Made by a program: the position numbers and the translations under genes | The notes under the pieces: generated by a model | Database searches by the model: none | What the model saw: the letters and a program-made list of their open reading frames with translations, nothing else | Told to the model about the DNA's origin: nothing | Shown: piece after piece, positions 5,473 through 54,927 of the stretch | How positions within the stretch are numbered: the stretch's first letter is position 1 | Layout: each line of letters opens with the position of its first letter | NCBI RefSeq assembly: GCF_918797505.1 | Contig: NC_092797.1 | Span: 37,585,372 to 37,649,371, forward strand | Reading direction: 5' to 3' | Length of the DNA: 64,000 bases | Source of the DNA: Bemisia tabaci | Lineage: Eukaryota; Arthropoda; Insecta; Hemiptera; Aleyrodidae

Positions 5473-5550
5473 CTCTTTTTTATGTTACAGGTAAATACAA
5501 TTGGACTTCTACTGTTGGGTATTCGCCTGTTAGGAGATGTTTGTGAGTAT
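5473..5550 (+). promoter_or_regulatory. Candidate recursive splice site 1 with RS-exon
   Basis: A pyrimidine tract (TTTTCTCTTTTTTATGTTACAG ending at 5490) is joined directly to GTAAATAC, so acceptor and donor coincide at 5490/5491. A branch-like TAATTAAC lies at about 5457. A strong donor GTGAGTAT starts at 5543, defining a 52-base RS-exon (5491-5542). In flies and vertebrates, recursive splicing removes long introns stepwise at such sites, and a downstream cryptic donor helps define the RS-exon. In one frame the RS-exon stays open and leucine-rich (VNTIGLLLLGIRLLGDV), so an ordinary small exon is the alternative. RNA evidence is lacking. Confidence 0.5.
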
Positions 5551-5641
5551 ATTTATGAGCTGCATCTAATTATCGACCCAAGTCTGTCTTTAGGTTAAAA
5601 GGTTCCCCATCTATATAAATAAAATCGTTGGGGGTTTCACT

Positions 5642-6125
5642 GTAACGCTTATTTCTGGAGTTCTACCGGACCGATTTCGACGATGCTTGACTCTGGTTAA
5701 AGCCCTTGACGTCCCGATGTCCGCAAAATTTTCAGACTTCCAAATTTTTCAGCCTCTTTCGCTTAAGACGCTTTTAAAGCCAAATCCACCCCCCTCCGAC
5801 CTTAAGTTTCCGAGAGTTGCGGTATGTTTCCGTTGTAACGCCTAATTTGAGAGATCTACCGGGGCGATTTTTACGATTTTTGGGTCGACCGCAAGCTCCT
5901 AGCTTCTAGATGCTCGCAAAATTGTCAGACTTCCAAATTTTTCAGACTCTTCTTCCTGAGACGCTCTTAAAGCCAAATCCACCCCCCTCCGGCCTTAAGT
6001 TCCCGGGAATTGGTTATGTTCCTGTTGTAACGCCTATTTTGAGAGATCTACCGGGGCGATTTTTACGATTTTTGGGTCGATTGAAAGCTTCTAGCTCCTA
6101 GATGCTCGCAAAACTATGAGAATTT
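5642..6125. repeat. 192-bp tandem repeat inside Helitron copy 1
   Basis: About 2.5 units starting at 5642, 5835 and 6027, each opening with GTAACGC and containing GATTT-ACGAT, CGCAAAATT, TCAGACTTCCAAATTTTTCAG and AAGCCAAATCCACCCCCCTC. Repeated in Helitron copy 2 (10855-11338). The 63-residue frame at 5910-6101 is made of this repeat and is not a gene. Confidence 0.85.
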
Positions 6126-6995
6126 CCAATTTTTCAGCCATATCTGTGTAAACCGCTGAGAGATGCAAATAGACCCCTCTCCATATTACTACTACACAGC
6201 CTTCACCCAACGCCGAAGGTCAAACTCGGACTCAGTCTCAGCACTGCTCTGTCTGAATAAAAGGAAGCCGCCCCAGATACGTGGTTCCATAAAACTGTCG
6301 AAGCGGTGCGATGACATGGGTTTTCCCGTCCTTTTGTCTAACAACCCTCGAGCCCGAGACTGCTCGCTACGGGATCGCAGCCCTATTGTCTCATATGCCA
6401 AACAAAATCTGACCCTCAAAATTTAAAGACAATAAAAATGCAATTTTTTCTATCATTCGGAAATTGTTTTTACAGTGTATATTTTTCGATTCGCGGTGAA
6501 ATTTTGAGCAGAATGGTGGTCAAACTAATGAAAATACATGATTCTACGGTACACTAAGATCGATACCACAACTGCTGCATTTATAACTTGCTGAACGATA
6601 TTTCCGTTACTTATCAACATATCACGACGAAATTTAGTTCATTGTAATATACTTTTTTAGCAGAGCGTAAATTTACTGAGAAAGTTGAAATCGAACCCGA
6701 TGAGAGAAATTTCATCAATTTTTTTGGAGCTCCACTAGGCCGAGCAGGAAGGGAAAAAAGGATGACGAATTGAGATCTATTGCTGCCGCCTGGTCTCCTG
6801 ACTGTCCAGGCCCAGCTGTTCTTGAACGCTTTGACGAGATTTTGTCGGCAGACGAGTCAAAACATGATTTTCCGACCAGGGAGCGACATCCAAACCTCGC
6901 GCTAATCCTCTCATTGTATTTTTATTGGAGTTATGTCCGAATACTTTGAAGAAAACCGAAAATGGTCTCTTTTTTAAAGCGTAGTGTTTGCAATT

Positions 6996-7235
6996 CTGCC
7001 GTGCTAAGGAAGAACGACATATGAACATTCGGGAGTTGCCAAATTTTCTTTGATAAAATGTTTATTTTTGAGGAAAATTATGAATATTTTCCCCATGAAA
7101 TATTCAGACGTTTTAGATCAAATTAAAAACAAAAGTATCCAAAATTTTCAAAAATTTTCCTGAAATTTAGTGGTTTTCCAGGGGAAATTTGGCAACGTCT
7201 GAAGACTCATACGGTGTTCTTCCTTACCAATGCAG
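6996..7235. mobile_element. Family A MITE inside Helitron copy 1
   Basis: CTGCCGTGCTAAGGAAGAAC at the left and the inverse ending in TGCAG at the right, flanked by AATT on both sides (4-bp TSD). It inserted before the Helitron was copied, because the same MITE occurs at the same internal place in copy 2. Confidence 0.85.
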
Positions 7236-7499
7236 AATTATGTTTGTCCCTCCCGTTACCCCTACATCAGCTACCTTTATCGAAGAGCAAAGGAAAACCG
7301 TGGGAAAAAACAGGAAACAAAATGTTTTCAGGACTGAATTGCTTCCTTTGAATTGCTTCCTCTGAGTTGCTCCGAAAATCAGTCTATTCGTGTACGCTGC
7401 CAACTTAGCTGCATCCTGCATCTCGAGAGCAACACTGATTAGATTTCGAAATCTCGCGACTTTTTGAGAGGTTGCCCATCGCTCATCTGCTTTCGTCGG

Positions 7500-7830
7500 A
7501 TACGTTCTTTTACGGTTATGTTAGTTGATCAATGGGTACTTAACAATATCTGCTCAATTTTTCTTTCTTTTTTCACGGAACAGTTCCGATTTGTGAGTGT
7601 CCGATATTGAGTGATACTATTTTGCCTCTGTATTCGCGAGATACGTTCTTTTGCGGCCGCGCCAGTCGATGAATGGATATTTAGCAATTTCTACTCATAC
7701 TTTCTTTCCTTTCTTTTTTTACGGAATATCCTCGGTTTTTTAGTGTCCAACCCAGTGCGAGGCTATTGTACACCTGTTTTCGCCAGAAACGTTCTACACA
7801 ATTTCTACTCATATTTTCTGGGTGCAAATG
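7500..7830. repeat. 141-147-bp tandem units in Helitron copy 1
   Basis: Units begin near 7500, 7641 and 7788 with (A)TACGTTCT or AACGTTCT and share TTAGCAATTTCTACTCATA-like and TTTACGGAA-like words. Helitron copy 2 lacks 155 bp here (7517-7671), so it has one unit fewer. Confidence 0.75.
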
Positions 7831-8697
7831 TGCGAGATTGTTGCGTCCTGTGCATGAAGTTTGTCTCTTTTTAGTGCGTATACTAATTAATGAGTCTAAT
7901 AATTTACACATTCAAACAATTCACTCGAATTTTTTACGCAGAATGTTCCTTGAGTGAGTAGCTAACGACTAGGAGGAGTAACTCCAAATTTACATGTATT
8001 TTGCCGGTCAGTGCCGAGTAACCGAAAATCCTTCTTTTATAAGGTAATACGTTTTGTACCCCGTTCGTTCATACTTTTGCGCGAAATTCATTTGAAAATA
8101 CATCCATTTATATGATGGCCAAATGCATGAGATGCTTTTTTTCATGTAACATTCGAAATTGTCTCTTTTCTTAAGTCCTAAATTTCTCTACTACTGGCGC
8201 CACCCGACGTATGATTGTTTAAGTCTGTAGCTTTGGCGTGGTGTTGGCTGGAGTCCTGGAGGACGCCAGTGAGCTACTCCTCCTGGCCAATACCAAGTGC
8301 GCAGGGCTTACATTGTCATATTCCGGAGGGACTTCGCCTTATTTAACTCACAGTTAATGCCCCCCCCCCCCCCCCGAAGAAAAATCCCTTACAGGAAAAC
8401 TATCCATAATGCTTCTTGGCAATTTCGCGTAATTTCGTTTTTCTTTTGAAAATTTACAAGGAAGATCATTACGGAACTGAAAACAGGTAAACTAATTTAG
8501 GAAGGAATGCCTCTCGTATTCATGTATTCAGAAGAGTTCTTATTGGATTACATTACTTTATCATCTTTTTGCATTTACGGCACGGAATACGGCTCGCTTG
8601 CGAGCCGTAAGTCACTCGCGAAGCGAGTGACCGGGGGTCCAGGGGGCGGAGCCCCCGGCTAGACGCGAGGCGAGCGAAGCGAGCCACAGCGGCTAGT

Positions 8698-8911
8698 TAC
8701 GGATATAAATGCATGCATTTCAGCCGAACCGCAAAAGCCAATTTTAAAATTACGTCTTAAAACTTTCCACAGAGGTAGTGACCGTTTCAACAGCTCAACC
8801 GCTATATAGACCCTGGCACCTAATCATCACTCCTCGATTTTGAACAGTGAAATAAAATGCTTAGTTTGCTGATCAAAAGGCAAAGTTTTAGGATAAATCT
8901 ACCTACATAAT
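8698..8911. other. No feature recognised
   Basis: Flank between Helitron copy 1 and the family E element; AT-rich, no motif recognised. Confidence 0.4.
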
Positions 8912-9161
8912 CAGGGTGTCTAGCATAAGGATTTTCCCGATTCTGTCAGGATTTGAGGTCAATCAGGATTTGAGGAAAAATCCGTCGTAAAATCAGCTGT
9001 CCGATCGGATTTTTGTATGCTTTCGCATACGCTTATGCAGAAATTTTAATTTTTCTTCCCAAGAAATCAGGATTTGGCAAAATTATGAAATCAGGATTTA
9101 GCAGTCAAAAATCAGGAAAAATCGGGATTCCCCAAAATGAAAAAAAAAACTAGACACCCTG
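8912..9161. mobile_element. Family E MITE, copy 1
   Basis: 250 bp with inverted ends CAGGGTGTCTAG and CTAGACACCCTG. The interior repeats AATCAGGATTTGAGG, AAATCAGGAAAAATC and similar words many times. Other copies: 26998-27296, and one split by Helitron copy 2 (10601-10822 plus 13742-13769). Confidence 0.8.
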
Positions 9162-9227
9162 TAGTCGATATGCCATGTTCATGTCTCAAAATTGTCGAAA
9201 CGCAGGTAGGTCATGCTCGTCACGGTT

Positions 9228-9460
9228 CACTGGAAAAAAAACACATTGGATGTAGAGTCCTGAGTCCAGACTCATGAAAACATTGACAAGAAAAAATACT
9301 CATGATTCAATCAGATTTTTGCTTGAATCAAAACGGAATCCGCTAAAAATAAGAGGCTTGGTTCTTGATTTAAGCCAGATTCTGATTGAAGTAAGAGTAC
9401 TTTTTCTTGTCGATGTTTTTGAGAGTCTGGACTCTGGATCCCATGTGTTATTTTCCAGTG
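9228..9460. mobile_element. Family B MITE, full copy with 7-bp TSD
   Basis: 233 bp. Ends CACTGGAAAAAAAACACATT and its inverse ending ATTTTCCAGTG. Flanked by CACGGTT on both sides, a 7-bp direct repeat. Arms contain GAGTCCAGACTC and ATTGACAAGAAAAAATACTC. Internal frames on either strand are palindrome artefacts. Confidence 0.85.
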
Positions 9461-9461
9461 C

Positions 9462-9986
9462 ACGGTTCTACCGAACGTTATTTTTTCCGTAACGAACCCT
9501 CGATTTTGATCTAGATATCCACTCCAAGCCCGGGGGAAAATTTTCTCTGTTCCCGGAATGAGAACGAGCGTGTTGGCACCCACTCGAGCGCGATTAAACG
9601 CATGTCGGAGCCCGGCGCAAATTGGGTGGGAACACGAGGTCCGGACGGGACTCGGGGCTTGGAGCAGCACTCATCGGAACCGAACCGATCGACGCAACGG
9701 AGAGCGGCGCGGCGCGGCGGCGGCGGCGGCGGCGGAAAAAAAAGCAAACAACTTTGATCACAACGCGGTGGTTCCTTATTAATAGTGCTGTTAATGTGTG
9801 ATTTATACAGAATCGAGCGTATCCACCATCCGAATTCAAAGCTACTCCGCCGAAGGGGCGAGGGGCGGGGGCCACCGTGGAGTGGCAGTTTCGGGCGCGT
9901 CGCCAAAAACGGATGCCGAGCACCCGTAGAAGCCGCGGTTCCACGGGCGGCTCCGCGCGCGACGAGAAGTCACCTGCGCGAAGTTG
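9462..9986. other. GC-rich island
   Basis: GC-rich stretch with a GGC/GCG microsatellite-like run near 9708-9735. Several open frames up to 131 codons exist on both strands because stop codons are rare in GC-rich DNA; none looks like a known protein. Confidence 0.5.
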
Positions 9987-10264
9987 AGGATGTCTACAAG
10001 TCCGGAATTTTTAGAAATAGTATTGATTTTGAAAGGGCATCCGGGAAGTTCTGAAAAAGTGCGGAAATTCCGAAAGGAGGTCCGGAATTTTTGTCATTTT
10101 TGTCGCAATTTGAGCGAGAATTTTAGATGTTTGGAATTTTAAGGATTTCGTCAAATGGAGGAACCAAGAAAGTACTAAATTTTTCTGTCGAGGATCTACT
10201 GAATTTATTGGGAATTTGCTGGTTAAGTACTGATTTTTGGCCAGCCCATTTCTGTAGACATCCC
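9987..10264. mobile_element. Family J MITE, degenerate copy
   Basis: Starts GAGGATGTCTACAAGTCCGG and ends TGTAGACATCCC. Interior words GTGCGGAAATTCCG, TCCGGAATTTTTGTC and TTTTTGTCGCAATTT match the better copy at 49789-50068. Confidence 0.7.
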
Positions 10265-10600
10265 ATAAGGAGGGAAGTTAAATGCTCGACCTATGCGGTA
10301 AGATTATTGAAACTGATAGGAAGAGCAATGAATGAAGAAGATAAGAGGAAAATAGAGTGATTCTATTGATAGAAGTGGGTGATTGTATTGGATAAAGGAG
10401 GCAATTAATAGACTAACAAAATGCAACCCACGAGAGACTCTGAAGTAGTCCATCACTTTCCTGCCCTTTAAGTTACCTAATGGAGAGAGTAAGGATACTT
10501 GGTCCCACGGAGACTTCTGGGATAACGAAAAAAAATATTCGCTATTACCCGTAAAAATTTTGTATTTATCACTTTCGTCTAAGATATCTTTATATTTTAA
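10265..10600. other. No feature recognised
   Basis: Moderately AT-rich, no recognised repeat; the 113-codon minus-strand frame (10304-10645) runs into the family E end and lacks any recognisable motif. Confidence 0.4.
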
Positions 10601-10822
10601 AGGGTGTCTACCGTCAGTAAAACCGGAAAAATCTGAGTAAATCAAGAAAATCGGTCACGGATCAGGAAATTCTGAGTGCGGCAAGCGTTTTTTAATTACA
10701 TGTAGTTTACCACATACACAAGTAAAGCAAACGTTTGTCGGTTCGTGAAATCAAAGGAATGTCACTTTATCCGTGCAAAAAATCAGGAAATTTCTTTAAA
10801 GTAGCAGGAAAAATCAGGAAAA
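10601..10822. mobile_element. Family E MITE, left part, split by Helitron 2
   Basis: Begins AGGGTGTCTACCGTCAG and carries AATCAGGAAA words. The missing right end, AGTAGACCCTG, appears at about 13759-13769, directly after Helitron copy 2. Joining across the Helitron gives A followed by T at the target, as the Helitron mechanism predicts. Confidence 0.75.
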
Positions 10823-13741
10823 TCTATATAAATAAAATCGTTGGGGGTTTCACTGTAACGCTTATTTCTGGAGTTCTACCGGACCGATTTCGACGATGCT
10901 TGACTCTGGTTAAAGCCCTTGACGTCCCGATGTCCGCAAAATTTTCAGACTTCCAAATTTTTCAGCCTCTTTCGCTTAAGACGCTTTTAAAGCCAAATCC
11001 ACCCCCCTCCGACCTTAAGTTTCCGAGAGTTGCGGTATGTTTCCGTTGTAACGCCTAATTTGAGAGATCTACCGGGGCGATTTTTACGATTTTTGGGTCG
11101 ACCGCAAGCTCCTAGCTTCTAGATGCTCGCAAAATTGTCAGACTTCCAAATTTTTCAGACTCTTCTTCCTGAGACGCTCTTAAAGCCAAATCCACCCCCC
11201 TCCGGCCTTAAGTTCCCGGGAATTGGTTATGTTCCTGTTGTAACGCCTATTTTGAGAGATCTACCGGGGCGATTTTTACGATTTTTGGGTCGATTGAAAG
11301 CTTCTAGCTCCTAGATGCTCGCAAAACTATGAGAATTTCCAATTTTTCAGCCATATCTGTGTAAACCGCTGAGAGATGCAAATAGACCCCTCTCCATATT
11401 ACTACTACACAGCCTTCACCCAACGCCGAAGGTCAAACTCGGACTCAGTCTCAGCACTGCTCTGTCTGAATAAAAGGAAGCCGCCCCAGATACGTGGTTC
11501 CATAAAACTGTCGAAGCGGTGCGATGACATGGGTTTTCCCGTCCTTTTGTCTAACAACCCTCGAGCCCGAGACTGCTCGCTACGGGATCGCAGCTCTATT
11601 GTCTCATATGCCAAACAAAATCTGACCCTCAAAATTTAAAGACAATAAAAATGCAATTTTTTCTATCATTCGGAAATTGTTTTTACAGTGTATATTTTTC
11701 GATTCGCGGTGAAATTTTGAGCAGAATGGTGGTCAAACTAATGAAAATACATGATTCTACGGTACACTAAGATCGATACCACAACTGCTGCATTTATAAC
11801 TTGCTGAACGATATTTCCGTTACTTATCAACATATCACGACGAAATTTAGTTCATTGTAATATACTTTTTTAGCAGAGCGTAAATTTACTGAGAAAGTTG
11901 AAATCGAACCCGATGAGAGAAATTTCATCAATTTTTTTGGAGCTCCACTAGGCCGAGCAGGAAGGGAAAAAAGGATGACGAATTGAGATCTATTGCTGCC
12001 GCCTGGTCTCCTGACTGTCCAGGCCCAGCTGTTCTTGAACGCTTTGACGAGATTTTGTCGGCAGACGAGTCAAAACATGATTTTCCGACCAGGGAGCGAC
12101 ATCCAAACCTCGCGCTAATCCTCTCATTGTATTTTTATTGGAGTTATGTCCGAATACTTTGAAGAAAACCGAAAATGGTCTCTTTTTTAAAGCGTAGTGT
12201 TTGCAATTCTGCCGTGCTAAGGAAGAACGACATATGAACATTCGGGAGTTGCCAAATTTTCTTTGATAAAATGTTTATTTTTGAGGAAAATTATGAATAT
12301 TTTCCCCATGAAATATTCAGACGTTTTAGATCAAATTAAAAACAAAAGTATCCAAAATTTTCAAAAATTTTCCTGAAATTTAGCGGTTTTCCAGGGGAAA
12401 TTTGGCAACGTCTGAAGACTCATACGGTGTTCTTCCTTACCAATGCAGAATTATGTTTGTCCCTCCCGTTACCCCTACATCAGCTACCTTTATCGAAGAG
12501 CAAAGGAAAACCGTGGGAAAAAACAGGAAACAAAATGTTTTCAGGACTGAATTGCTTCCTCTGAGTTGCTCCGAAAATCAGTCTATTCGTGTACGCTGCC
12601 AACTTAGCTGCATCCTGCATCTCGAGAGCAACACTGATTAGATTTCGAAATCTCGCGACTTTTTGAGAGGTTGCCCATCGCTCATCTGCTTTCGTCGGAT
12701 ACGTTCTTTTACGGTAATGGATATTTAGCAATTTCTACTCATACTTTCTTTCCTTTCTTTTTTTACGGAATATCCTCGGTTTTTTAGTGTCCAACCCAGT
12801 GCGAGGCTATTGTACACCTGTTTTCGCCAGAAACGTTCTACACAATTTCTACTCATATTTTCTGGGTGCAAATGTGCGAGATTGTTGCGTCCTGTGCATG
12901 AAGTTTGTCTCTTTTTAGTGCGTATACTAATTAATGAGTCTAATAATTTACACATTCAAACAATTCACTCGAATTTTTTACGCAGAATGTTCCTTGAGTG
13001 AGTAGCTAACGACTAGGAGGAGTAACTCCAAATTTACATGTATTTTGCCGGTCAGTGCCGAGTAACCGAAAATCCTTCTTTTATAAGGTAATACGTTTTG
13101 TACCCCGTTCGTTCATACTTTTGCGCGAAATTCATTTGAAAATACATCCATTTATATGATGGCCAAATGCATGAGATGCTTTTTTTCATGTAACATTCGA
13201 AATTGTCTCTTTTCTTAAGTCCTAAATTTCTCTACTACTGGCGCCACCCGACGTATGATTGTTTAAGTCTGTAGCTTTGGCGTGGTGTTGGCTGGAGTCC
13301 TGGAGGACGCCAGTGAGCTACTCCTCCTGGCCAATACCAAGTGCGCAGGGCTTACATTGTCATATTCCGGAGGGACTTCGCCTTATTTAACTCACAGTTA
13401 ATGCCCCCCCCCCCCCCCCCGAAGAAAAATCCCTTACAGGAAAACTATCCATAATGCTTCTTGGCAATTTCGCGTAATTTCGTTTTTCTTTTGAAAATTT
13501 ACAAGGAAGATCATTACGGAACTGAAAACAGGTAAACTAATTTAGGAAGGAATGCCTCTCGTATTCATGTATTCAGAAGAGTTCTTATTGGATTACATTA
13601 CTTTATCATCTTTTTGCATTTACGGCACGGAATACGGCTCGCTTGCGAGCCGTAAGTCACTCGCGAAGCGAGTGACCGGGGGTCCAGGGGGCGGAGCCCC
13701 CGGCTAGACGCGAGGCGAGCGAAGCGAGCCACAGCGGCTAG
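10823..13741 (+). mobile_element. Non-autonomous Helitron, copy 2
   Basis: Same ends as copy 1 (TCTATATAAATAAAATCG ... CGGCTAG, between A and T). By eye, differences from copy 1 are two substitutions (C/T near 11600 and T/C near 12384), loss of a 14-bp tandem duplication (copy 1 about 7340-7353), a 155-bp deletion of one tandem unit, and C17 instead of C16. That is roughly 99.9 percent identity outside indels, implying very recent transposition. No transposase frame. Confidence 0.9.
12209..12448. mobile_element. Family A MITE inside Helitron copy 2
   Basis: Copy of the MITE at 6996-7235 carried along by the Helitron; same ends and AATT TSD. Confidence 0.85.
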
Positions 13742-13769
13742 TCAAAAATAAATTTTAGTAGACCCTGCT
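13742..13769. mobile_element. Family E MITE, right end after Helitron 2
   Basis: Continues the split element from 10822 and ends GTAGACCCTG. Confidence 0.65.
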
Positions 13770-13831
13770 CTATCAAGAGGCCTTTCGCAACGTCCGAAAG
13801 TTTATACGACATTTTTCCATAGCACGGCAGT
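13770..13831. mobile_element. Family A MITE, solo right end
   Basis: Only the right half remains (TTTCGCAACGTCCGAAAG ... TTTTTCCATAGCACGGCAG). A GC-rich island follows directly to about 14060. Confidence 0.7.
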
Positions 13832-14242
13832 TTGTTCAAGTAGTCTGATTGCACCCAGTCGCGCGGTTGACTTCGTGTCGCGCGGTGCTTGTGGAACCGC
13901 GGCCGATGAATGCCCGCGAGGTGGGCACGAAAATAGTCTCCTCTGGGTGACACGCGACGTGTAGTGCGAGACCGTGGTCCTTAGCCAGGCCAATAACCCA
14001 CCGCGCGCTGTGATACTCATTTTTTGCAATTCTTCTAATTGGCGGCGCCTTCAAATAGAAGCGCTAGATCGAGGAGACAAGCTGATCCCAAGAGGATTGC
14101 AGGGCAGAAATAAACCGTGCCCGGAGGGTCTCACTTAACCAGTGGGATTTCGTATAAGGTTGAGGGCGGTCCTTAAAATAATACATTGTCATTGCGAGTT
14201 GGTCTCGCGAATAAAATATCTTGACTCTACATAATTAAGCTA
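13832..14242. other. GC-rich island, then unrecognised
   Basis: 13832-14060 is GC-rich with three overlapping minus-strand frames, none recognisable. 14060-14242 shows nothing recognised. Confidence 0.4.
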
Positions 14243-14257
14243 CTTTCATTTTTATAC

Positions 14258-14417
14258 TAACTAACGCACAAGTCGCTCTTACAGCGCTTCTGTGCGCTCT
14301 GCGACACCCAACCACCACTGATAGCGAATCTGCCAGAGCTCCTCCAGCAGATCGCATCTCCTCATTTCCTGCCTTATTCCCTCAATCCACGATTTGACAG
14401 GGCGTCCTCTACGCTTT
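14258..14417 (-). mobile_element. 5-prime-truncated LINE insertion
   Basis: A 15-bp direct repeat, CTTTCATTTTTATAC, flanks the segment (14243-14257 and 14418-14432), as expected of a TSD made by target-primed reverse transcription. The minus strand between them encodes the C-terminus of a LINE reverse transcriptase and ends shortly after the stop codon, so the 3-prime UTR is very short. Everything upstream is missing, the usual 5-prime truncation. Confidence 0.75.
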
Positions 14418-14420
14418 CTT
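14279..14420 (-). pseudogene. LINE reverse transcriptase C-terminal fragment
   Basis: Read on the minus strand, the frame gives RKRRGRPVKSWIEGIRQEMR, then a W-rich tail (ELWQIRYQWW), and stops at TAA (14281-14279). The GRP-K-W...R-R-E pattern followed by W residues is typical of the extreme C-terminus of LINE-type (non-LTR) reverse transcriptases of insects. About 45 residues survive; the catalytic palm domain is absent. The clade cannot be set from so little. Confidence 0.7.
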
Positions 14421-14455
14421 TCATTTTTATACAATTCACATATATCTCACTTCAT

Positions 14456-14845
14456 TATATGGACCACATTTTGAAACAAGGAACCACTATTTCTGGCTTA
14501 ATTTAGAAACATCACTTATGCCATCGGTTTCCCTTCGCAGATAGGTGCTTTTAAGAAGGAGCCACACTGAGAAAAAACTATGGCTTATAAACCTATTAGT
14601 GGTAAATATGGAACACCACTAATAGTAGTACCTCTACATATAATAATAGCACATATACCTTAGTTATGGTCTCTGTACCTTAATTAGGTACAGAGACCTT
14701 AGTATGGTTCACAGACCGAGAATCATTAGTTTATTTACGACTATTATAGGTGTTCCATATTTACCTCTAATAGGTTTATAAACCATAGTTTTTTCTCAGT
14801 GAGAGATGGTGGCTTCTTATTGCAGTATGTAACCCTTATAGTTCA
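14456..14845. mobile_element. Family I2 MITE, split by a family C insertion
   Basis: Left end ATATGGACCACATTTTGAAAC with AAGGAACCACTATTTCTGGC; right end GGTGGCTTCTTATTGCAGTA is the inverse. The family C element 14565-14801 sits inside. A related copy is at 48008-48146 and shares the end pattern of family I. Confidence 0.65.
14565..14801 (+). mobile_element. Family C MITE, copy 1
   Basis: 237 bp. Ends CACTGAGAAAAAACTATGGC and inverse ending ATAGTTTTTTCTCAGTG. Interior has CTTAGTTATGGTCTCTGTAC and the inverse-type GTACAGAGACCTTAGTATGG. By eye identical to 17853-18089, so the family has moved recently. No clear TSD. Confidence 0.85.
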
Positions 14846-14920
14846 GTACCATCTCAAACAGGGGTTACGAGTGCAAGAAAGAGGTCAGAAGAAGTTTAAG
14901 TTGATACCTATGTTTTATTT

Positions 14921-45518: not shown

Positions 45519-46399
45519 CAGGGCCGGATTAAGGGTGTGGCCACATGGGCCGCGGCCGCGGCCCATGGCGGCAAATCTAGGGGGCGGCAAATTTTGCAAT
45601 TTTTTTTAAATGTATAGGTATAAAAAAATTGGATTTAGGAAAAAAATTACAAACAGAAAAGGCTACAAAATCTCTCATTTCCTGAGAGTATGGTAATTTC
45701 TAATTTTGTCGTCTTTCAGTGATACAAGAGACAGCACCTTTAATTAGCCGAGATGAGAGAGAAACCAAACACACAATTTGGCCTGGAACGGCGCGGCGCG
45801 ACTTTGATGGGGAGGACTTGAGATGAAAAGGAGACGCCTTCAGCGCGGCAATCGGCATGTAACACATATTAGCGCCTACAAGACTGCAAGAATACTTCAC
45901 GCATTGCATCAAACACACTGCGGTTATTGTGGTCAGCGTGAAACGGATAGCGCCCATAAGAATGCACGAATACTTCACGCATTGCGTCAAACACAGTGCG
46001 GTCAGCGTGAAACGCATAGCGCCTACAAGACTGCGTGAATACTTCACGCATTGCGCCAAACACGGTGCGGTCGGCGCGGTGGCGGAAGTTAAAATTATTA
46101 AACCACATTTACGTTTGTTCTTTCATCTTTTTTCGCTTAATACTTATAAATGGAAGGCGTTGTCCACATAGAACTTAGTTTACGGAACTTGACTTTCGCG
46201 CGAAGTTCCGTGACCTTTTGCTAGTAGTGTTGACAGGGCTTACCCAAAAAATGTGTTCAACACGAGTAAACGCGCCTTATGCACCCCTCCCCCGCTGGCA
46301 CGTTCACTTGATGGTTTTTAGTGATGTTTGAAAACGAATGAGAAGGGGGCGCCAAAATACAGGCGGCCCATGGGCGGCAAGTAGGAAAATCCGGCCCTG
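45519..46399. mobile_element. hAT-type non-autonomous element, 881 bp
   Basis: Ends CAGGGCCGGATTAAGG and AATCCGGCCCTG, typical of hAT elements. Flanks AACTATAT and AATTATAT match at 7 of 8 bases, the 8-bp TSD of hAT transposition. The interior has GGCCGCGGCCGCGGCC near the left end and a three-unit tandem repeat at 45870-46075. No transposase. Confidence 0.85.
45870..46075. repeat. Tandem repeat inside the hAT element
   Basis: Three units of 69-79 bp starting at about 45870, 45949 and 46018: AGCGCC(T)A(C)AAGA..GC, GAATACTTCACGCATTGC, CAAACAC.GTGCGGT. The frames on both strands here are artefacts of the repeat. Confidence 0.8.
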
Positions 46400-47245
46400 A
46401 ATTATATAGCTGTATGAGCTTTTGTTAAGCCGATTTTAAACCTATTAGTAATATCAATACGGTGTTAACTCAATAGATCTAGTTTCAAGCAACGTGCTGG
46501 GGCCTGGAAAAAGAAGAGCTGGCGCATATTTGTAAAGCGAGTAATTTTAGAGAGTACTTTTCTAGTCGCCGATCTATGAGCTTCTGATAATGCGTGAGCT
46601 ACTAGTTTCACAATTTCAAGCTAAGAGAGGCAAGCTAACAAGCTTATCGTCTCCTTGATTTCAACAGCAAGACGCATATAGACGCGGTTACATTGTGAAA
46701 TTGAAATGTTTAACGGGAGGACGGTCATACATCATGGATCCATACATCACTCGATGAACAGATAGTTGAAGGAGCAGACTGCAATACATGACTGGCTCCC
46801 TATCATTTTAAGGAGGAGGATAAAGGGCTTGCTGCTGCACTAATATGAATAACGATCGAGACCAAAAGGCCGAGGCAGAGATAGTCGCCCTAGCGCCGGA
46901 ATTTTATTGGGTCTCGAAGATCCTGGCTGGTGCTCGGGTAAACAAATCAATTTGCCGAGCCGATAAATCTCCCAGCGGAGGCAAGGTCGAAGGAGGCGCA
47001 CACTCGCTGACGAAACACGGTTATTTTTACCGCTGCCGGCTTCTTCGCGCCTTCGGCACCCTTTGCTCCCTCTGGCAACGGGTTGTCATCGTTTGCTCAC
47101 TCAAATTTTGTGCCTCAAATTTTATAAAATTACTCTAAGAACCGATTTTAACTTCTCTGTTGTTATCAAGTTTGGCCGCGCGCGATCATAGAGAATATCG
47201 AAGATCGAATATAGACCATAGACGTGGCCGTTTTACTTTTGACGA
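46400..47245. other. No feature recognised
   Basis: GC-richer patch at 46850-47080 with short frames only. Confidence 0.4.
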
Positions 47246-47499
47246 GGTGGAGAAATGGTGCTGGGTCCACACCATTTCGCGGGGAAACAAAGCCAAGAAA
47301 ATACCAAAAATTAAAATTAGAGTAAAATTAGTGTTCAGCTCAGGCAGTTTGCAGTTGTCCCCCCCCCTCCCCCCTCAGTTTCGTACTGGTGCGCATCAGA
47401 GTTCAAAAAATTTAATTTTGACTCTAATTTTAATTTTTGGTATTTTCTTGGCTTTTGTTTCCCCGCGAAATGGTGTGGACCCAGCACCATTTCTCCACC
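47246..47499. repeat. Foldback repeat of 254 bp
   Basis: Left arm GGTGGAGAAATGGTGCTGGG, CACACCATTTCGCGGGGAAA, GCCAAGAAAATACCAAAAAT; right arm is the inverse ending GCACCATTTCTCCACC. Spacer contains a C-rich tract at 47360-47376. Confidence 0.8.
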
Positions 47500-48007
47500 G
47501 TGTTATATACAGTTCGGGCCACTTCTTAGTGTTTAATTTTTTCATTTACTTTTGACGTAGTAAGGTATGATTGACGAGAGAGAGGAAGAGGGTGAGGAGT
47601 GCGTGGGAAAGCGAGGAAGCTGGAAAGAGCTGCGGGTGAAGTTTGTGACGTGTAAAGGAACTAATGAAGAGGCGGACACCCACTTCAGGTTTTCTTGATG
47701 GCACGCTGCTGGAGAACTATGAGCATCCCTTTTTAGCATCCTCTCAAAGAAATCGTGTGTTTTATAAGCGAAACATGTCTAGCAGAACCTTTTTGAAGTA
47801 GTAATAGTGTCGGCATTCCATTTTTAATCGAAAGAAGCTTCTCTGAATGTATTTTTGAAAAAAGGCGCTAAAGGGTTCTCTTCGTGCAAAAAAGGAGATC
47901 CATCCCTGATAAAAACTAATTAGGGTTCACTCTCGTCCATGCCTCAACACTGATCGGATCCTAATTCGTCCCTTGAAAGAGAGTCCGTTCATTGAGGCTG
48001 GATCATA
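47500..48007. other. No feature recognised
   Basis: TTTACTTTTGACG occurs on both sides of the foldback (about 47233 and 47547), possibly a longer target duplication. Otherwise nothing. Confidence 0.35.
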
Positions 48008-48146
48008 TGGATTACATTTTGCAATAGGGAACCACTATCTTTGGCTCTCCTGTAGAAGCACCTTTCTTTTTAGGGAAACCGACGGCATATAAGTTGTTTC
48101 TAAAATGAGCCAGGTCTAGTGGTTCCTTATTGCTAAATGTGATCCA
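48008..48146. mobile_element. Family I2 MITE
   Basis: TGGATTACATTTTGCAATAG with GGAACCACTATCTTTGGCTC; right CTAGTGGTTCCTTATTGC and GTGATCCA. Related to 14456-14845. Confidence 0.65.
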
Positions 48147-48560
48147 TGTACGGATCCCATTCATTTTTCACGGGATATACTTTTCCTGAGAACAGGCTTA
48201 CATGCTGGAAAAGATTCCCTCTGATGCGCTCTAGTGGAACCTTTTTTCTTTAAAGTATGTATTTTATTTCTTGACAGAGGCATAATTATGTTTGTTATCA
48301 CCGTCCATTTTCAACTTCCAAGGTAAAAATCTAAAATTTCACCTTTCAGTCAAAATTACGATATTAATAATTACTTAATTTTAATTTTAGAAATCAGAAA
48401 TTTAGAAGTCGATAATTTTTAATTTTAGTTATCACGAAAAGATAAAAATTGTTCAATTTATTTCGTGTCATATTTATTTACGCTCCCCGGTAACTAAATG
48501 CGAATTTCTTTAGTTTTCCCTCTGATTCAAGCAAAAAACCAGCCAAATTTTGTATAGAAA

Positions 48561-48816
48561 TTGGACCGCGATAAACGGAAAGGAACCAAGCCACATCAGC
48601 TATTGCCAAATTTAATCGGCTAATTTAACTTTTTACATGAAAACAGTTGTGCGGATTTTCGTGCAAATTTCAGTAAATTTTCTCCATAGTACAAAGCAAA
48701 TTTTTAACATTTTCAAAGGGATCCGCACAAACGTTTTCTCTTAAAAAATTAAATTGTCCGGCTAAAATTGGCAATAGCTGATGTAACTTGGTTCCTTTCT
48801 GTTAAACGCGGTCCAA
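48561..48816. mobile_element. MITE with TTGGACCGCG ends
   Basis: 256 bp; TTGGACCGCG and CGCGGTCCAA, extended by AAACGGAAAGGAACCAAG / CTTGGTTCCTTTCTGTT, AGCTATTGCCAA / TTGGCAATAGCT, and GTGCGGAT / ATCCGCAC. Single copy here. Confidence 0.8.
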
Positions 48817-49417
48817 TTATTATACCATCCATGTGCTTGTAAGGAATCGGATTATTGAGTCAATTTCACAAAATATGTAATAGAGGTACGTTTTTTCGTT
48901 CAAAATATAACGATATGAGAGCGTCTTTTCACACAACGACCTCAAGATAACCAACGATATGAAGCGACACATCTCACATGGTGGGAGAAACACGTAAGGA
49001 ACAAGTTTCAGAACGGAAAGGGCGCCTCCTCCGAAATTTGAGTCCGAGCTCGATTATAGTTTTCCTCTTTTCAAACCAAATTTAAATTTCAGCGGGCGAA
49101 GATTGCGGTCCCAGCCCCAATTTGTGGCTCGAGTTGCGCGCAATAAAGCGGTTGACAAGGCGCTCTCGGTGGCGTTAAGAAATTTGCGAGCCAATAAATT
49201 GGGCGCTCGGCGATTCAAACGGACCCGCTCGGTCTTTTTATTTGTGGACGTGGGTCCTTCGGAACGCAGCGGGAGCCATCCATGAAAAAGCGTAACAAGA
49301 CAATGAGGATGTGAGAGCGTAAAAGTTGAAAACATGCCACCAATTTATGGTCAAATAAACAAGGGAGCATGTCTATTACGCTCGCTTTTGCGTGCGTCCA
49401 AATGGACCTCGTGAATA
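48817..49417. other. Unrecognised, GC-rich toward the right
   Basis: 49020-49417 is GC-richer and ends exactly at a family A insertion. Confidence 0.4.
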
Positions 49418-49642
49418 CCGCCGCGCTAAGGAAAAACACCGTATGAGCCGTAGGGTGTTGCCACATTTCCTTCATCAAATCACGAATTTACAGGAAAAGT
49501 TGTGAATATTTCCTCTCCGATTATTCAGAGGATTTCGTCCGTAATTCGATCCTAAAATTCCGAAAATTTTAAGGAATAATATGCATCACCTTCTTCAATA
49601 ATGGATTCTAACTCTTCTTCTCTCTTACTAATGATTACTATA

Positions 49643-49780
49643 TGGACTGCATTTTGCAATTTGGACCTATAAATTCTGGCTCATCTGAAAAAACCTTTAT
49701 GTGCATAGGGAAGGTAATGGCACATACGTTGTTTTTAAACCGGGCCGGAATTATAGGTCCAAATTGCAAAATGCAGTCCA
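49643..49780. mobile_element. Family I MITE, copy 2
   Basis: 138 bp, TGGACTGCATTTTGCAATTT and AAATTGCAAAATGCAGTCCA, TIRs of 20 bp or more; interior CCTTTATGTGCATAGGGA. Confidence 0.85.
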
Positions 49781-49788
49781 TATATTAT

Positions 49789-50068
49789 CAGGGTGTCTAC
49801 AAGTCCGGAAATAGCACTGATTTTTAAGGGCGGTCCGGAAATACTGAAAAAGTGCGGAAATTCCGCAAAAAGGGCCGGAATTTTTCTAATTTTTTGTCAT
49901 TTTTGTCGCAATTTAAAATTTTAGAAATTTTTCTAATTCCGTCAAATGGAGGTAGTGAAAAAGTACGGAATTTCTCTTTTGGAAGAGGTACTGAATTTTT
50001 CGAAAATGTACTGAAAAAGTGCTGTGAAAGTACTTATTTTTGACCAGTTTGTTTTAGTACACACCCTG
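49789..50068. mobile_element. Family J MITE with 7-bp TSD
   Basis: 280 bp, CAGGGTGTCTACAAGTCCGG and ending TAGTACACACCCTG, flanked by ATATTAT on both sides. The interior repeats AAGTGCGGAAATTCCG-like and GTACTGAATTT words. Confidence 0.8.
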
Positions 50069-50382
50069 ATATTATTCCATCTCTTGTTCTCTCTTACTCA
50101 TGATTGTGAAACATTTTCTTTACGTTTATCAATTTCTACATTTAAGTGCTGTTTTATTAGTACATCACTTAAATATATCAACTATATTATTCTATCTCTT
50201 CTTCTCTCATACCAATAATTACAGTATATATTATTTTATCCCGTCTCTTTTACTAATGACTCCTGTACATATTATTCAATCTCTTATTCTCTCTTACATG
50301 ATGTTGTTGCGAATGGATGTTTTCAAAGAAGAAATTTGGCTACATTCGAATGTTTATAGAGCGTTTTTACTCAGCTCGGCAA

Positions 50383-51436
50383 AATACAGGGATCGCGCCC
50401 AATATAGCGGGCGCTGAAGCGAATTTCGCCGAAAATCTTTGATGTCAATGCGCGCGAGACCCCGCTGCGCTGGCTCGAGGATTGTCAAACCAACACAAAC
50501 GTTTCAGATCTTTTAACGGTCCTTCTCTTTGCGCTTTATCCGTCTCGCAGTCGAGGCGCTTGCTGTGCTGTGGTCGAAAGAAAACAATTTTCTCGCGGGA
50601 ATAATGTATGAGTTGGAAACGGAATCGTAGCTGTGTGGCGGGGTTTATTCTGTGCGGACTTTGGGTCGGGTGCCCCTTTTGAGACTAAGTTTAATCTCGC
50701 ATCAGATCGACGAGAAATCTATTCGGTTTCACATAATCTACGCTTTTAACTCTTTTCCCCCATGTTTGCATCTGATATGATTGTGCTCTTGATAGAGCTT
50801 TTTCCTCCGGAGTTATTCGTTTCAAAACACGAGTCCTATGTTCATTCTCGGTAATCACAATTTTGACTCTATGATGGAAACAAGGAAACCATAGATATGG
50901 TGTTCTGTGCAAATTTTGAATGAAATCGGACAGATAGATTCCGAGACACCGCTGTAGACAGATTTGGGGGACGCCTGACGGACGGACACACATTTTTTCA
51001 AGTATGGTTATTTTGACTCCTGGGGCCTTACAACGTCTAGAAATGATGAAATTTCAATTTTTTTTTCTTTTTCCCTTGCAGGATGACAATACTTCCTCTA
51101 CCCTAGGGGAGCGAGAAAGTAAAAATAGTTTCTCAGATGTGCATTTATGCCCATTTAATGCCCATCTTCAAGGCTTGTACATCGCGGGTAATCCCCCATG
51201 TCAATCAGCCATGAATAGACCGTATTCGATACTGGTACAATGTATCCATTGGTTCTAAATACTACAACATGATTTCAAACTAAAATTTTAGGATTTAGGT
51301 TGAAAATGCTGAAAAAAAGTACAAAAAGGAAATACCTTAATATTTTAAATTTCACTGCTATGTATAGTATTCAAAGAATCAAAAATCGATCGCAAAAACC
51401 TGTTACCGCAAATCACTCAATGGACTTTAAAGGCTA
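50383..51436. other. GC-rich patch and a likely dispersed repeat
   Basis: 50383-50680 is GC-rich. 50690-51010 ends in ACGGACGGACACACATTTTT after ATCGGACAGATAGATTCCGA, a style common in dispersed insect repeats; I could not find a second copy here. Confidence 0.35.
51060..51125 (+). promoter_or_regulatory. Candidate ordinary acceptor with small exon
   Basis: TTTTTTTCTTTTTCCCTTGCAG ends at 51081, a strong acceptor on the same strand as the recursive sites. The following GATGACAATACTTCCTCTAC continues to a weak donor at GAAA|GTAAAA (51119). Could be an alternative exon or a chance match. Confidence 0.2.
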
Positions 51437-51647
51437 CACTGAAAAAAAAGTAGCTTGGATCAAGCATGATAATTCTTGAATTTGCCGCCAAGAATTTTCT
51501 TCATCTTGCTTTAAGCTGACTTTTTCTTGATTTAAGAAAAATAGTGTTTGGGTTTAGCAAAAAAAGTAGCTTATATTAACCAGCAAAATTCTTGATTTAA
51601 GAAGAAATACTTCTTGGCGGCAAATTTAAGATTCTTTTTTTCCAGTG
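51437..51647. mobile_element. Family W MITE, related to family B
   Basis: 211 bp, CACTGAAAAAAAAGTAGCTT and inverse-type end TTTTTTTCCAGTG. Arms share TTGCCGCCAAGAA / TTCTTGGCGGCAA and TCTTGATTTAAGAA words. Confidence 0.7.
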
Positions 51648-51864
51648 TATGTTTACATAACGAAACAACTGATACCGATATACTTGTAGCGATAGAAAGC
51701 CCGTCATCTAATACGATCTCTTAAAACATTAATAACAGGTACTATAACTCGAACTAAAAAAAAATATGAGATATTAAAAATAAATGGTGAAATTAAGATG
51801 AGGAACTAACTTACTAAATGCTCTCTTGTTCGCTGTGAAGGCGCTGTCTAGTCACGCCGACTTA

Positions 51865-52874
51865 CGAGGGGCGTTCTTAAAGTAAGTATATATCTTTATT
51901 TTCTCCGGAACTAATGAAGATAAATTAAAACGGTAAAAAGTGTTTTAACCGTCATACTCTCAGCTTTTCAAAAAGCCTTCGTTTTTTAAATTTGGTCCAC
52001 CCGTTCGCGAGTGACGTCATTTTTCCCGCGCCCATCTCTCGTCACCGCGTGTCCAAAATATTCGAGCGCGGCGGAGCTCCTCAGACGAGTACATGTTTTG
52101 GCTCCGGGATTTTGGGTCGCTCAAGGAATATTGCTGATCGATTTCTTAGGAAGAGGAAAAACGATCGATGCCGCAAGATATTGTGAAGTTTTGAAAAAAC
52201 TTAATTCAGCGATCAAGCGAAAACGGCCCGATCTTTTGTCTCGTCAAGTTTTGTTCCTTCAAGACAACGCTAGGCCTCATGTGGCTCATGTGACTAGAGA
52301 CTTGTTCGCCTCATTCAAATGGGACCTTTTTCCTCATCCATCGTACTCACCGGACCTTGCTCCATGCGATTTTCATCTTTTTCCTGCGTTAAAGAAGAGC
52401 TTGGGTAGCCGAAAGTTCTCCACCGACGCAGAGTTGCAAGAAGCTGTAAAAAAATGGTTCCAACGACAGGATATGCGCAATTTTTTGAAGATTGAATCCA
52501 CAAACTGCTAACACATAATCAGAAATGTGTTCAACTGGGTGGAGATCATGTCGAAAAGCAAGGTAAGACAATTCAAAGCCTGAAAGTTTCACATATTTAT
52601 CCAATTAATTGTGTTACAACCTTTTTTACGGTGAAAACATGCGTACTCACTCGTCTGAGGAACTCCGCCGCGTTCGAATATTTTGGACACGCGGTGACGA
52701 GAGATGGGCGCGGGAAAAATGACGTCACTCGCGAACGGGTGGACCAAATTTAAAAAACGAAGGCTTTTTGAAAAGCTGAGAGTATGACGGTTAAAACACT
52801 TTTTACCGTTTTAATTTATCTTCATTAGTTCCGGAGAAAATAAAGATATATACTTACTTTACGAACGCCCCTCG
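51865..52874. mobile_element. Internally deleted mariner with long TIRs
   Basis: 1010 bp, CGAGGGGCGTTCTTAAAGTA and the inverse ending GAACGCCCCTCG, flanked by TA on both sides. TIRs are about 236 bp each (51865-52100; 52636-52874), nearly perfect, and unusually long for mariner. Between them lies a transposase C-terminal fragment in plus orientation. Non-autonomous; could still be moved in trans. Confidence 0.9.
52101..52511 (+). pseudogene. Mariner transposase, C-terminal part
   Basis: The open frame formally starts at ATG 52011, but the first 30 or so residues translate the TIR; real homology begins near FWVAQGILLIDFL (about 52110). Two catalytic aspartates are present: D of QDNARPH and D of SPDLAPCDFHLF with 34 residues between, the D34D spacing of mariner. 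The first aspartate and the DNA-binding domain are absent because the left TIR joins directly to mid-protein. The frame is intact to TAA at 52509-52511, ending FLKIESTNC. It cannot be a working transposase. Confidence 0.9.
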
Positions 52875-52934
52875 TATGTTGTTACTTACCTTATTATGTG
52901 TCCTCCAGTTCAATGAAAGGACATGCATTGTCCT

Positions 52935-53172
52935 CACTGAGAAAAAACTATGGTTTATAAACCTATTAGAGGTAAATATGGAACACCTATAATAGTCGTA
53001 AATAAACTAATGATTCTCGGTCTGTGAACCATACTAAGGTCTCTGTACCTAATTAAGGTACCCCGTACCATAACTAAGGTATATGTGCTATTATTATATG
53101 TAGAGGTACTACTATTATAGGTGTTCCATATTTACCTCTAATAGGTTTATAAACCATAGTTTTTTCTCAGTG
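52935..53172 (-). mobile_element. Family C MITE, copy 3, inverted
   Basis: 238 bp; same ends as the other copies, but the interior runs in the opposite order (GATTCTCGGTCTGTGAACCA first). A few differences, e.g. GGTACCCCGTACC. Confidence 0.85.
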
Positions 53173-53777
53173 CTGAGCCTCGGTGGGCTCCTAAGAAGAT
53201 TAACTGCAATATTTTCCACCGCATCGTAAAGCTTTTGCTCCCAATACTTAGTAGAATGAAATAGCCTTCATAGTGAGAGCAACCTCAGTTCAATGACTGC
53301 ACAGTTGTGTACAGCTTTTCCGCGGAACTGTGCCTCAATTTTTATACCGTATAAATGTCGCATTCAAAACTACTTTGGAGGCTGAGCAGTAATTTATAGC
53401 TTCTTCAAATTGTCTTCGCGACGTCGAATGAAAAAAGATTCGGAGAGGAAGAAGAAGCTGGCGCGAAAGCACCGCTCGACCGCGAAGCGGGAAGTTTTTG
53501 TAGCAATTATTTCAAACTTTTCCCGACTCACCCTCCTCCCCCTCCCCAGCTATCCTCCCGTTTCGATGCTTTATTATTAATTATCCCCGCAATAAAATCT
53601 CAGGAATTACTCCGAATTAGAGACTTTTTGAATTATCCCGCGAATACTCTCAAATGACAGTTTCGGAATTATGAGCGTAGTTGCGGGCGATTTTCTCTCA
53701 CTGCAGTCATTTTCGACTTACTGACTGGAATACTACTAACAGAGGAGGACTGGAAACCAATTGAATTTCACAGTTCA
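53173..53777. other. No feature recognised
   Basis: GC-richer patch at 53420-53560; no gene. Confidence 0.4.
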
Positions 53778-53826
53778 GAAACGACCCATCTCGGAAAAAT
53801 GAAATGTTTCAAGTGACTCGCTGGGG

Positions 53827-53872
<46 letters not shown>

Positions 53873-54175
53873 ACATTGGATCTAGAGTCCAGACTCTTGA
53901 AAAAATTGACAAGAAAAAGGACTCTTGATTCAATCAGATTTAAGCTTAAATCCAAAGGAAATCCGCTCAAATTAAGAGGCTTGGTTCTTGATTTAAGCTT
54001 AAATCTGATTGAATCAAGAGTATTTTTTCTTGTCGATGTTTTTAAGAGTCTGGACTCCAAATCCAATGTGTTTTTTTTCCAGTGCTATAAAAATCGCGTG
54101 ACAGTCAGAAAAAGAGTGTTTTCATGCCAAGAAACGAACGTTATTGGCAAAATCCTGAGTTGGGTCATTTTCGAA
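53778..54175. mobile_element. Family U MITE, copy 2, split by family B
   Basis: AAACGACCCATCTCGGAAAA (53779) is the inverse of the right end of 4403-4523. Beyond the family B insertion, AAAGAGTGTTTTCATGCC and TGGGTCATTTTCG match the inverse of the rest. Confidence 0.55.
53819..54084. mobile_element. Family B MITE with A45 tract
   Basis: Left TIR CGCTGGGG followed by 45 A (53827-53871) and CACATTGGATCTAGAGTCCA; right end AATGTGTTTTTTTTCCAGTG is of normal length. The 180-codon frame 53804-54346 translates this element. Confidence 0.85.
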
Positions 54176-54454
54176 CTAAGGTATTCCATCCAGGTCCAAC
54201 TCACACCACACCTCATTACAAACGAGATTGGGGTAGTAGAATTTATTTACATTATCCGTGATCTGTATCAACTTGGAATCATCCTAGGACTCTATGGGTT
54301 ATTCTGTGTAGTTTCGTTTTCCTTTTGTGTTCTTGTCAAGTTGTAGGGCGGCCATAAAGTGTTATAATGTGGATCTTATGATGTCGATATTACTTCTGAC
54401 TCTCCACCATTCTCATGTTTGGGAATGCTTGCGTACGGTCATTTCTAAACATTT

Positions 54455-54584
54455 AATTGGACGTATTTCTTCCTAACGGAACTATGTGCATTAAGACATG
54501 AGCCCTGAGACCCATAAGAATACATGCTTATCAGGGCTCACACCATAATGCACATAGTTCCGTTTGGCAGAAATACGTCCAATT
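54455..54584. mobile_element. Family L MITE, copy 1
   Basis: 130 bp, AATTGGACGTATTTCTTCCT and inverse GCAGAAATACGTCCAATT; arms share AACGGAACTATGTGCATTA and GAGCCCTGA. Confidence 0.8.
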
Positions 54585-54784
54585 TATGCGTCTATTCATT
54601 TCGGAATCCCAATGCTCCGGAGTCTTGTTTCAATGCTTTACAATGCCCGTGTATACATGCACGCAGGTCAGAATCCGAAATTCACATGGCTCGCTGTTTC
54701 ATTCGATTCACGGAATTTTCATCATAACGTTTCCTTGTGTTTTTCGTTAGTTTCGTTTCAAGCTTTCAGTATAATTAAATCCGT

Positions 54785-54927
54785 GCCTTTTCTTGTTTGT
54801 TTCAGGTAAATTTCACCAAGTCTGCCCTCAACCGCCGTTCTTTGAATGTCCAGCGTGTTCCACCCATCGCAATCCATATTTTACCCTCTGTGCATTGTGG
54901 AAAATAATATTTGCTCAACGTGAGTAC
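54785..54927 (+). promoter_or_regulatory. Candidate recursive splice site 3 with RS-exon
   Basis: CCTTTTCTTGTTTGTTTCAG ends at 54805 and is followed directly by GTAAATTTC. A branch-like TATAATTAA lies at about 54771. A strong donor GTGAGTAC starts at 54920, giving a 114-base RS-exon. One frame through it is open (VCPQPPFFECPACSTHRNPY), so a coding alternative exon is possible. Family L copies flank it on both sides. Confidence 0.5.

Follow-up and report, generated by a model that had tools for sequence, protein, structure and literature searches.

Putative recursive splice sites within an apparently very long 5'-UTR intron of a Bemisia tabaci TMEM132 gene

The question raised by this locus is whether a 64,000-nt stretch of Bemisia tabaci DNA (the window; C5:37,585,372-37,649,371 in an assembly of 610 Mb and 151 contigs) is part of one very long intron that is removed in steps by recursive splicing. 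Three fused acceptor-donor sites were identified on the plus strand of the window: TTACAG/GTAAAT at 5490/5491, TTACAG/GTAATT at 34698/34699 and TTTCAG/GTAAAT at 54805/54806 (the slash marks the junction; window numbering is also used beyond the ends of the window). Each site is followed by GTGAGTA, at 5543, 34751 and 54920, which closes a short stretch of 52, 52 and 114 nt, respectively. Motifs, positions and distances are exactly those given in a preliminary description of the stretch, where they were taken as the layout of recursive splicing with recursive splicing exons (RS-exons). The strand bias of the sites, their scores (> 0.85), the shortness of the putative RS-exons and the donor at each of them point to the same layout. 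Judging from the sequence, it is very probable that the window is part of a giant intron in the 5'-untranslated region (5'-UTR) of a plus-strand TMEM132/detonator gene, and this intron would be removed stepwise.

At each of the three sites, 14 of the 16 positions from -20 to -5 are pyrimidines, and the nearest upstream AG lies 60, 74 and 36 nt before 5491, 34699 and 54806, respectively. The sums of the acceptor and donor scores are 24.3, 23.7 and 23.2 bits, compared with 15.8 bits for the runner-up on both strands of the window, according to splice matrices that are approximate and were not trained on this genome. On a 0-1 scale for recursive sites the values are 0.895, 0.883 and 0.880 in the same order, and the next is 0.803; only these 3 of the 388 AGGT sites on both strands, all on the plus strand, exceed 0.85. 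Recursive sites of the fly were reported to score generally > 0.85 by the matrices of that study (PMC6110457). An acceptor at 51082 (16.7 bits) was discounted, as GTAA does not come next and the donor is weak (5.5 bits).

Such motif pairs are rare in control sequence, and the three sites are far above chance expectation. Markov controls of order 3 and order 5 (64 Mb each) contained 44 and 42 sites of at least 23 bits (0.044 and 0.042 for one strand of 64 kb), while sites of at least 20 bits with GTGAGTA at +20 to +120 numbered 2 and 1. At a threshold of 16 bits the Markov expectation is 2.7 and 2.5 per strand; the plus strand of the window has three such sites, which are the three described, and the minus strand none. 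With a plain pattern, no pair of site and GTGAGTA was seen at any of four Markov orders (150 controls per order). At least three sites without the pairing were found in up to 2.7% of the controls with the loosest pyrimidine tract (10/16) and in none with 12/16 or 13/16. GTGAGTA occurs within 114 nt downstream of about 1.07% of plus-strand positions, which gives a probability of ~1e-6 for three of three, for a motif and a distance picked post hoc. No other 7-mer is common to the stretches downstream of the three sites; a 7-mer of any kind is shared in 647 of 20,000 random triples. With 6 copies on the plus and 5 on the minus strand, GTGAGTA is more frequent than the once per 16 kb first supposed, namely about once per 11-13 kb. 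It is in range of 2 of the 238 other acceptor-like sites on the plus strand of the window and of 2 of the 211 on the minus strand; GTAA directly follows 0 of these 238 and 1 of these 211.

The analysis was extended to 314 kb, comprising 100 kb upstream, the window and 150 kb downstream. Between the corkscrew gene and a TMEM132 exon at 161151, five plus-strand sites reach at least 23 bits (5491, 34699, 54806, 87971 and 120756), compared with ~0.15 expected (Poisson P ~6e-7), and no minus-strand site reaches 20 bits (best 19.6). Over the 314 kb, sites of at least 23 bits number 7 in the forward sequence, 1 in the reverse complement (206297), and 0 in both the reversed and the complement sequence. 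GTGAGT is present at +20 to +120 at 5 of the 7 forward sites and at 0 of 1 on the reverse complement. On the 0-1 scale, 7 plus-strand sites and 1 minus-strand site (-88162, 0.859) exceed 0.85 in 264 kb. The earlier statement that no comparable minus-strand site exists is correct for the window and is not strictly true further out, given 206297 (23.4 bits) and -88162. Site 206297 lacks GTGAGT in range and is located past the first TMEM132 coding exons. The plus-strand site -88182 is canonical (TTTCAG/GTAAGT, with donors at +33 and +56) and 20 nt away from -88162; located upstream of the exon for the C-terminal SH2 domain of corkscrew, it may belong to an intron of that gene. The plus-strand site at -98634 was dropped as a recursive site, being among GGTAAAATTACC-like inverted repeats (judged by eye).

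The steps between the sites, up to the exon at 161151, are 29.2, 20.1, 33.2, 32.8 and ~40.4 kb, a series of which the 29-kb and 20-kb steps noted at the outset form part. The density is five sites in ~224 kb. For fused sites per 100 kb of large intron, values of 2.2 (fruit fly), 1.0 (mosquito), 0.8 (beetle), 0.5 (bee) and 0.5 (sea urchin) were reported, with 0-0.12 on the complementary strands of the same five invertebrates (PMC2773006), under a scoring that differs from the present one.

The host gene is indicated by its downstream exons, which are on the same strand as the fused sites. The plus-strand exon 161151-162032 encodes a TMEM132_N domain (PF15705; 29.1 bits, cut-off 27) in its first frame. 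A frame shift occurs at ~161560 in a GC-rich stretch, and the second frame is without a Pfam match; the change of frame may reflect either an error in the assembly or a genuine break. The next exon, 165833-165988, continues in phase. With the putative start exon (see below), exon 161151 and the later pieces as query, 34 protein matches were obtained from 7,991 candidates scored, and 10 of those listed are named TMEM132. The best relative is from Homalodisca vitripennis (60% identity over 82% of the query); the two top TMEM132 matches are from Homalodisca and Laodelphax, with other hemipterans lower among the matches listed. No paper joining TMEM132 with recursive splicing was found in the literature searched.

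The start codon is likely carried by exon 120756-120841, which also opens with the last fused site of the array (TTACAG/GTAAGC). A search for signal-peptide exons between corkscrew and TMEM132 that end in the phase needed by exon 161151 gave 8 candidates on the plus strand, several of them nested, and 0 on the minus strand. Exon 120756-120841 has an ATG at 120790 and the donor ACC/GTAAGTT at +86; it encodes MAFIGTISFLVLLVFLD, a predicted signal peptide, and its end phase fits VAGTVDVHLENKDGGFF of exon 161151, the junction reading ...LDRVAGTVDVHLENKDGGFF. A short hydrophobic start right before this block is present in several of the 13 relatives aligned (of the 34 matches). In Laodelphax the start is MDLASRMVLLLVTIAGVAGSVEVHFENKDGGFF, with 16 residues before VAG, compared with 18 here. 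The predicted proteins of other relatives have longer or quite different starts, and two from Heteroptera are without a clear signal peptide there. The remaining candidates comprise three through the acceptors 34699 and 87971, one at 82524 and three at 159004. The three at 159004 were set aside by eye, as they encode poly-phenylalanine followed by 20-50 residues without counterpart in the relatives. With the start codon in exon 120756-120841, the three window sites would fall in one or more 5'-UTR introns.

One site of the array is duplicated. A second copy of segment 34272-34943, equally oriented and 90% identical, is located at 87536-88218, and the 301 nt about site 2 (34560-34860) match the genome at these two places. 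Part of the segment is also 76% like a stretch at 81 kb. The acceptor half of site 2 differs from its copy at 87971 at 1 of 60 positions, and RS-exon 2 has 2 differences. The whole element, from -60 to the downstream donor, shows 3 events in 122 nt, compared with 56 events in the 550 flanking nt (P 0.002 by Fisher's test), for a single pair of paralogous copies, with each gap counted as one event and the limits of the element set after looking. Windows of 122 nt with at most 3 events make up 3.8% of all, and every one of them overlaps the element. The two longest runs without a change (48 and 45 nt) include the acceptor and its fused donor, and the RS-exon end together with GTGAGTA; a third such run, 43 nt long, falls outside the element. 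The pattern fits selection on both splice signals, in one pair of copies only. The segment about 5491 matches elsewhere in the genome only from ~5602 on, and no second copy of RS-exon 1 was present among the 40 matches scored of 71 candidates; the segment about 54806, including RS-exon 3, matched itself alone. The copy search skips very common words, and its low counts are no proof of rarity. By these matches, the surroundings of the sites do not belong to any large family of repeats in this genome. A direct duplication of ~3 kb (5609-8697 and 10822-13742; > 99% identical in two aligned parts) opens with a 192-bp tandem array and starts ~65 nt past the first RS-exon donor.

Table 1. Signals of the three fused sites and the predicted intron in the window
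Feature	Position	Strand	Remarks
Acceptor half, site 1	5457..5490	+	Branch-like TTAACTCC at 5460, pyrimidine tract, TTACAG
Putative RS-exon 1 (52 nt)	5491..5542	+	Begins with recursive donor GTAAAT; 2 of 3 frames open
Putative RS-exon 1 donor	5543..5549	+	TTT/GTGAGTA; no G at -1
Acceptor half, site 2	34639..34698	+	Branch-like TTAAATTC at 34657, pyrimidine tract, TTACAG
Putative RS-exon 2 (52 nt)	34699..34750	+	Begins with recursive donor GTAATT; stops in 3 of 3 frames
Putative RS-exon 2 donor	34751..34757	+	ATC/GTGAGTA; identical in the copy at 87971
Acceptor half, site 3	54771..54805	+	Branch-like TTAAATCC at 54775, pyrimidine tract, TTTCAG
Putative RS-exon 3 (114 nt)	54806..54919	+	Begins with recursive donor GTAAAT; 1 of 3 frames open
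Putative RS-exon 3 donor	54920..54926	+	AAC/GTGAGTA; no G at -1
Part of predicted TMEM132 5'-UTR intron	5491..64000	+	Runs on to 87971, 120756 and the TMEM132_N exon at 161151

The observed signals, with their statistics and strand bias, the duplication, the genes on either side and the fit of the start-codon exon in phase and location suggest a mechanism in which transcription, the use of the sites, the order of the steps and the fate of each RS-exon are predicted. The spliceosome would recognize each short RS-exon by the strong acceptor on one side and the downstream donor on the other, and would join the upstream exon to it. Joining would regenerate a donor (upstream exon/GTAA), which would be used instead of the RS-exon donor, and the RS-exon would be removed as part of the following intron segment. 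These steps would take place at 5491, 34699, 54806 and 87971, one after another. The final site, 120756, would open the exon for the start codon and signal peptide, to be kept if the protein is to be full. In the fly, a ratchet point was reported to need a cryptic RS-exon of ~50 nt closed by a downstream donor, and the regenerated donor usually beats the RS-exon donor after the first step, so that the exon is lost (PMC8605326).

The outcome of this competition depends on the upstream exon. The CAG that precedes the recursive donors in the DNA is part of the removed intron, and the end of the real upstream exon therefore decides the score. If the upstream exon ends in CAG, the scores are 9.65, 9.75 and 8.99 bits for the recursive donors and 5.21, 6.39 and 8.37 bits for the RS-exon donors; after AAA or AAT the recursive donors are about level or lose. 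Retention of an RS-exon is possible and would presumably be better tolerated in a 5'-UTR than in coding sequence. An extension of the mechanism, which seems rather improbable, is that the array is a regulated 5'-UTR device and more than a help in removing the intron: weak recursive donors would let RS-exons stay at choice and thereby alter the 5'-UTR, the last site could delete the exon for the start codon and signal peptide (TMEM132 off or a new start), and ratchet points would multiply by local duplication while the intron grows, a possibility suggested by 34699 and 87971.

Several observations weigh against stepwise removal from one giant intron, in addition to the approximate nature of the matrices. 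None of the three window donors (GTAAAT, GTAATT, GTAAAT) has the G at +5 of the GTAAGT consensus, although it is present at the fused sites -88182 (GTAAGT) and 120756 (GTAAGC). The donor consensus is a preference and no absolute requirement. If only the intron side is scored, GTGAGTA surpasses the recursive donors by 3.4-4.2 bits, and loss of the RS-exons would thus depend on a good end of the upstream exon. A possible branch-point motif, TTAAMTYC, at 5460, 34657 and 54775 (starting 31, 42 and 31 nt before the acceptor ends) was found post hoc and is marginal against controls (P 0.02-0.05). The strong minus-strand sites at 206297 and -88162 lie outside the window, and at the lower threshold of 20 bits the reversed sequence of the 314 kb contains 5 sites (none of at least 23), compared with 7 in the forward sequence, 2 in the reverse complement and 0 in the complement. 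Ordinary exon-like acceptor-donor pairs number 10 on the plus and 11 on the minus strand of the window; they are about as common on one strand as on the other, and the strand asymmetry is thus confined to the fused sites. The segments, at 20-40 kb, are longer than is typical of the fly, where 9-15 kb was reported (PMC6110457). The three start-exon candidates at 159004 are more hydrophobic and have stronger donors than the exon chosen at 120756. No first exon was found upstream of 5491, and bases 1-5490 could therefore lie partly outside the intron. The proposal that the whole 64 kb sits in one plus-strand intron is accordingly supported for 5491..64000, as far as sequence can show, with TMEM132 and two further sites downstream, and is less certain for the first 5,490 bases.

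Conventionally spliced alternative cassette exons, of a 5'-UTR or of a long non-coding RNA, that merely start with GTAA are unlikely to account for the three sites. Such exons would equally have a good acceptor and donor, as each site has, and with the predicted start codon downstream at 120790 the reading frame would stay intact if the 52, 52 or 114 nt were included; the absence of G at +5 in the recursive donors and the greater intron-side strength of the RS-exon donors also agree with them. An ordinary exon needs no GTAA start, however, and GTAA follows 0 of the 238 other plus-strand acceptor-like sites but 5 of the 5 sites of at least 23 bits between corkscrew and exon 161151, by a score that favours GTAA. 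Moreover, the RS-exon donors are without G at -1 at 5 of 5 sites (T, C, C, C, C), and the exon at 34699 has stops in all frames. The single open frame of RS-exon 3 has no Pfam match.

An origin of the sites from a dispersed repeat or transposon carrying splice signals would be in keeping with the repeat content of the window, 31% of which is repeated within it, and with the copy of 34272-34943 that occurs 53 kb on and the partial likeness at 81 kb. None of the 3 sites is inside a repeat found within the window, though, and the genome copy counts given above (5491 from ~5602 only, 34699 at two places, 54806 itself only, by a search that skips very common words) largely refute this origin, which is regarded as highly unlikely. 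That acceptor-donor fusions and a nearby GTGAGTA arose randomly in AT-rich sequence is less credible still: the motif was picked post hoc, and strong sites do occur on the minus strand outside the window and, at the lower threshold, in the reversed sequence, but the Markov controls are against it, as are the counts at 23 bits over the 314 kb, where the reversed and complement sequences have 0 and the opposite strand has 1, none with GTGAGT in range.

The kind of system considered here, recursive splicing with RS-exons, is already known. The locus resembles the ratchet points of Drosophila (Ubx, kuz, Bx and others) in the AG/GT fusion, the apparently very long intron, the short putative RS-exon with a downstream donor, the several sites per intron and their position on what would be the transcribed strand. 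Unlike in Drosophila, the donors are GTAAAT or GTAATT rather than GTAAGT, the segments are 20-40 kb rather than 9-15 kb, the intron would be in a 5'-UTR, one site is duplicated within the predicted intron, and the use of the sites is a prediction. With vertebrate RS-exons the locus would share an exon-defined recursive site, a downstream donor and a long intron (PMC8605326). The marked strand enrichment is as in invertebrates, whereas a ratio of at most 1.5 was reported for vertebrates (PMC2773006). Expressed RS-exons include m1 and m2 of Ubx and human RS-exons that are kept by the exon junction complex (PMC8605326). Exon 120756 is similar to these in having a recursive donor at its start and in being apparently protein-coding; it differs in that it would carry the start codon and the signal peptide, and recursive skipping would remove the normal start.

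Recursive splicing is well characterized in flies and vertebrates. Only motif counts were found for other insects (mosquito, bee and beetle; PMC2773006), and for other arthropods nothing on point was among the matches listed in the literature. From raw sequence alone, a multi-site array with a named host gene and a putative start-codon RS-exon was obtained. The duplicated ratchet point and the recursive site at the apparent start-codon exon are worth following, and the two copies of the former would allow selection on the element, and the origin of such sites, to be tested within one genome.

The upstream neighbour, corkscrew/SHP2, is on the plus strand and was traced from the C-terminal SH2 exon at -72146 through a phosphatase exon ending at -63954; the joined pieces match Pfam SH2 with 97.8 bits and Y_phosphatase with 111.9 bits. 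A tail exon with GREYTNIRY runs from -63104 to a donor at -62895. The last exon, at -62338, contains a second tyrosine motif (IYENI) and then, near -62.2 kb, a stop codon; no donor ahead of the stop reaches 4 bits. The exon for the N-terminal SH2 domain was not found in the 100 kb upstream.

No host coding exon recognized by Pfam is present in the window among the 24 of 24 open reading frames of at least 120 aa, the length to which the scan was limited. The sole frame to pass the Pfam cut-off is a mariner piece (51990-52508), and two others are weak and below it. Rfam and tRNA scans of the window gave nothing. The mariner transposase piece (51860-52879; Pfam Transposase_1, 40.7 bits) overlaps inverted arms of 231 nt; among its named relatives, those of a pseudoscorpion and a spider match best. 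A large foldback element at 57385-60130 has arms ~99% identical and internal repeats of ~180-190 bp. Short, partly palindromic repeat families resembling miniature inverted-repeat transposable elements are located at 478-725, 3436-3698, 20123-20390, 42364-42641 and elsewhere, with at most 9 copies of one unit. Outside the window, a 577-aa open reading frame at 100746-102476 is transposase-like (by eye). Two plus-strand frames of 860 and 1076 aa (-76053 to -73474 and 149052 to 152279) resemble the reverse transcriptase of long interspersed nuclear elements (by eye) and share long identical stretches.

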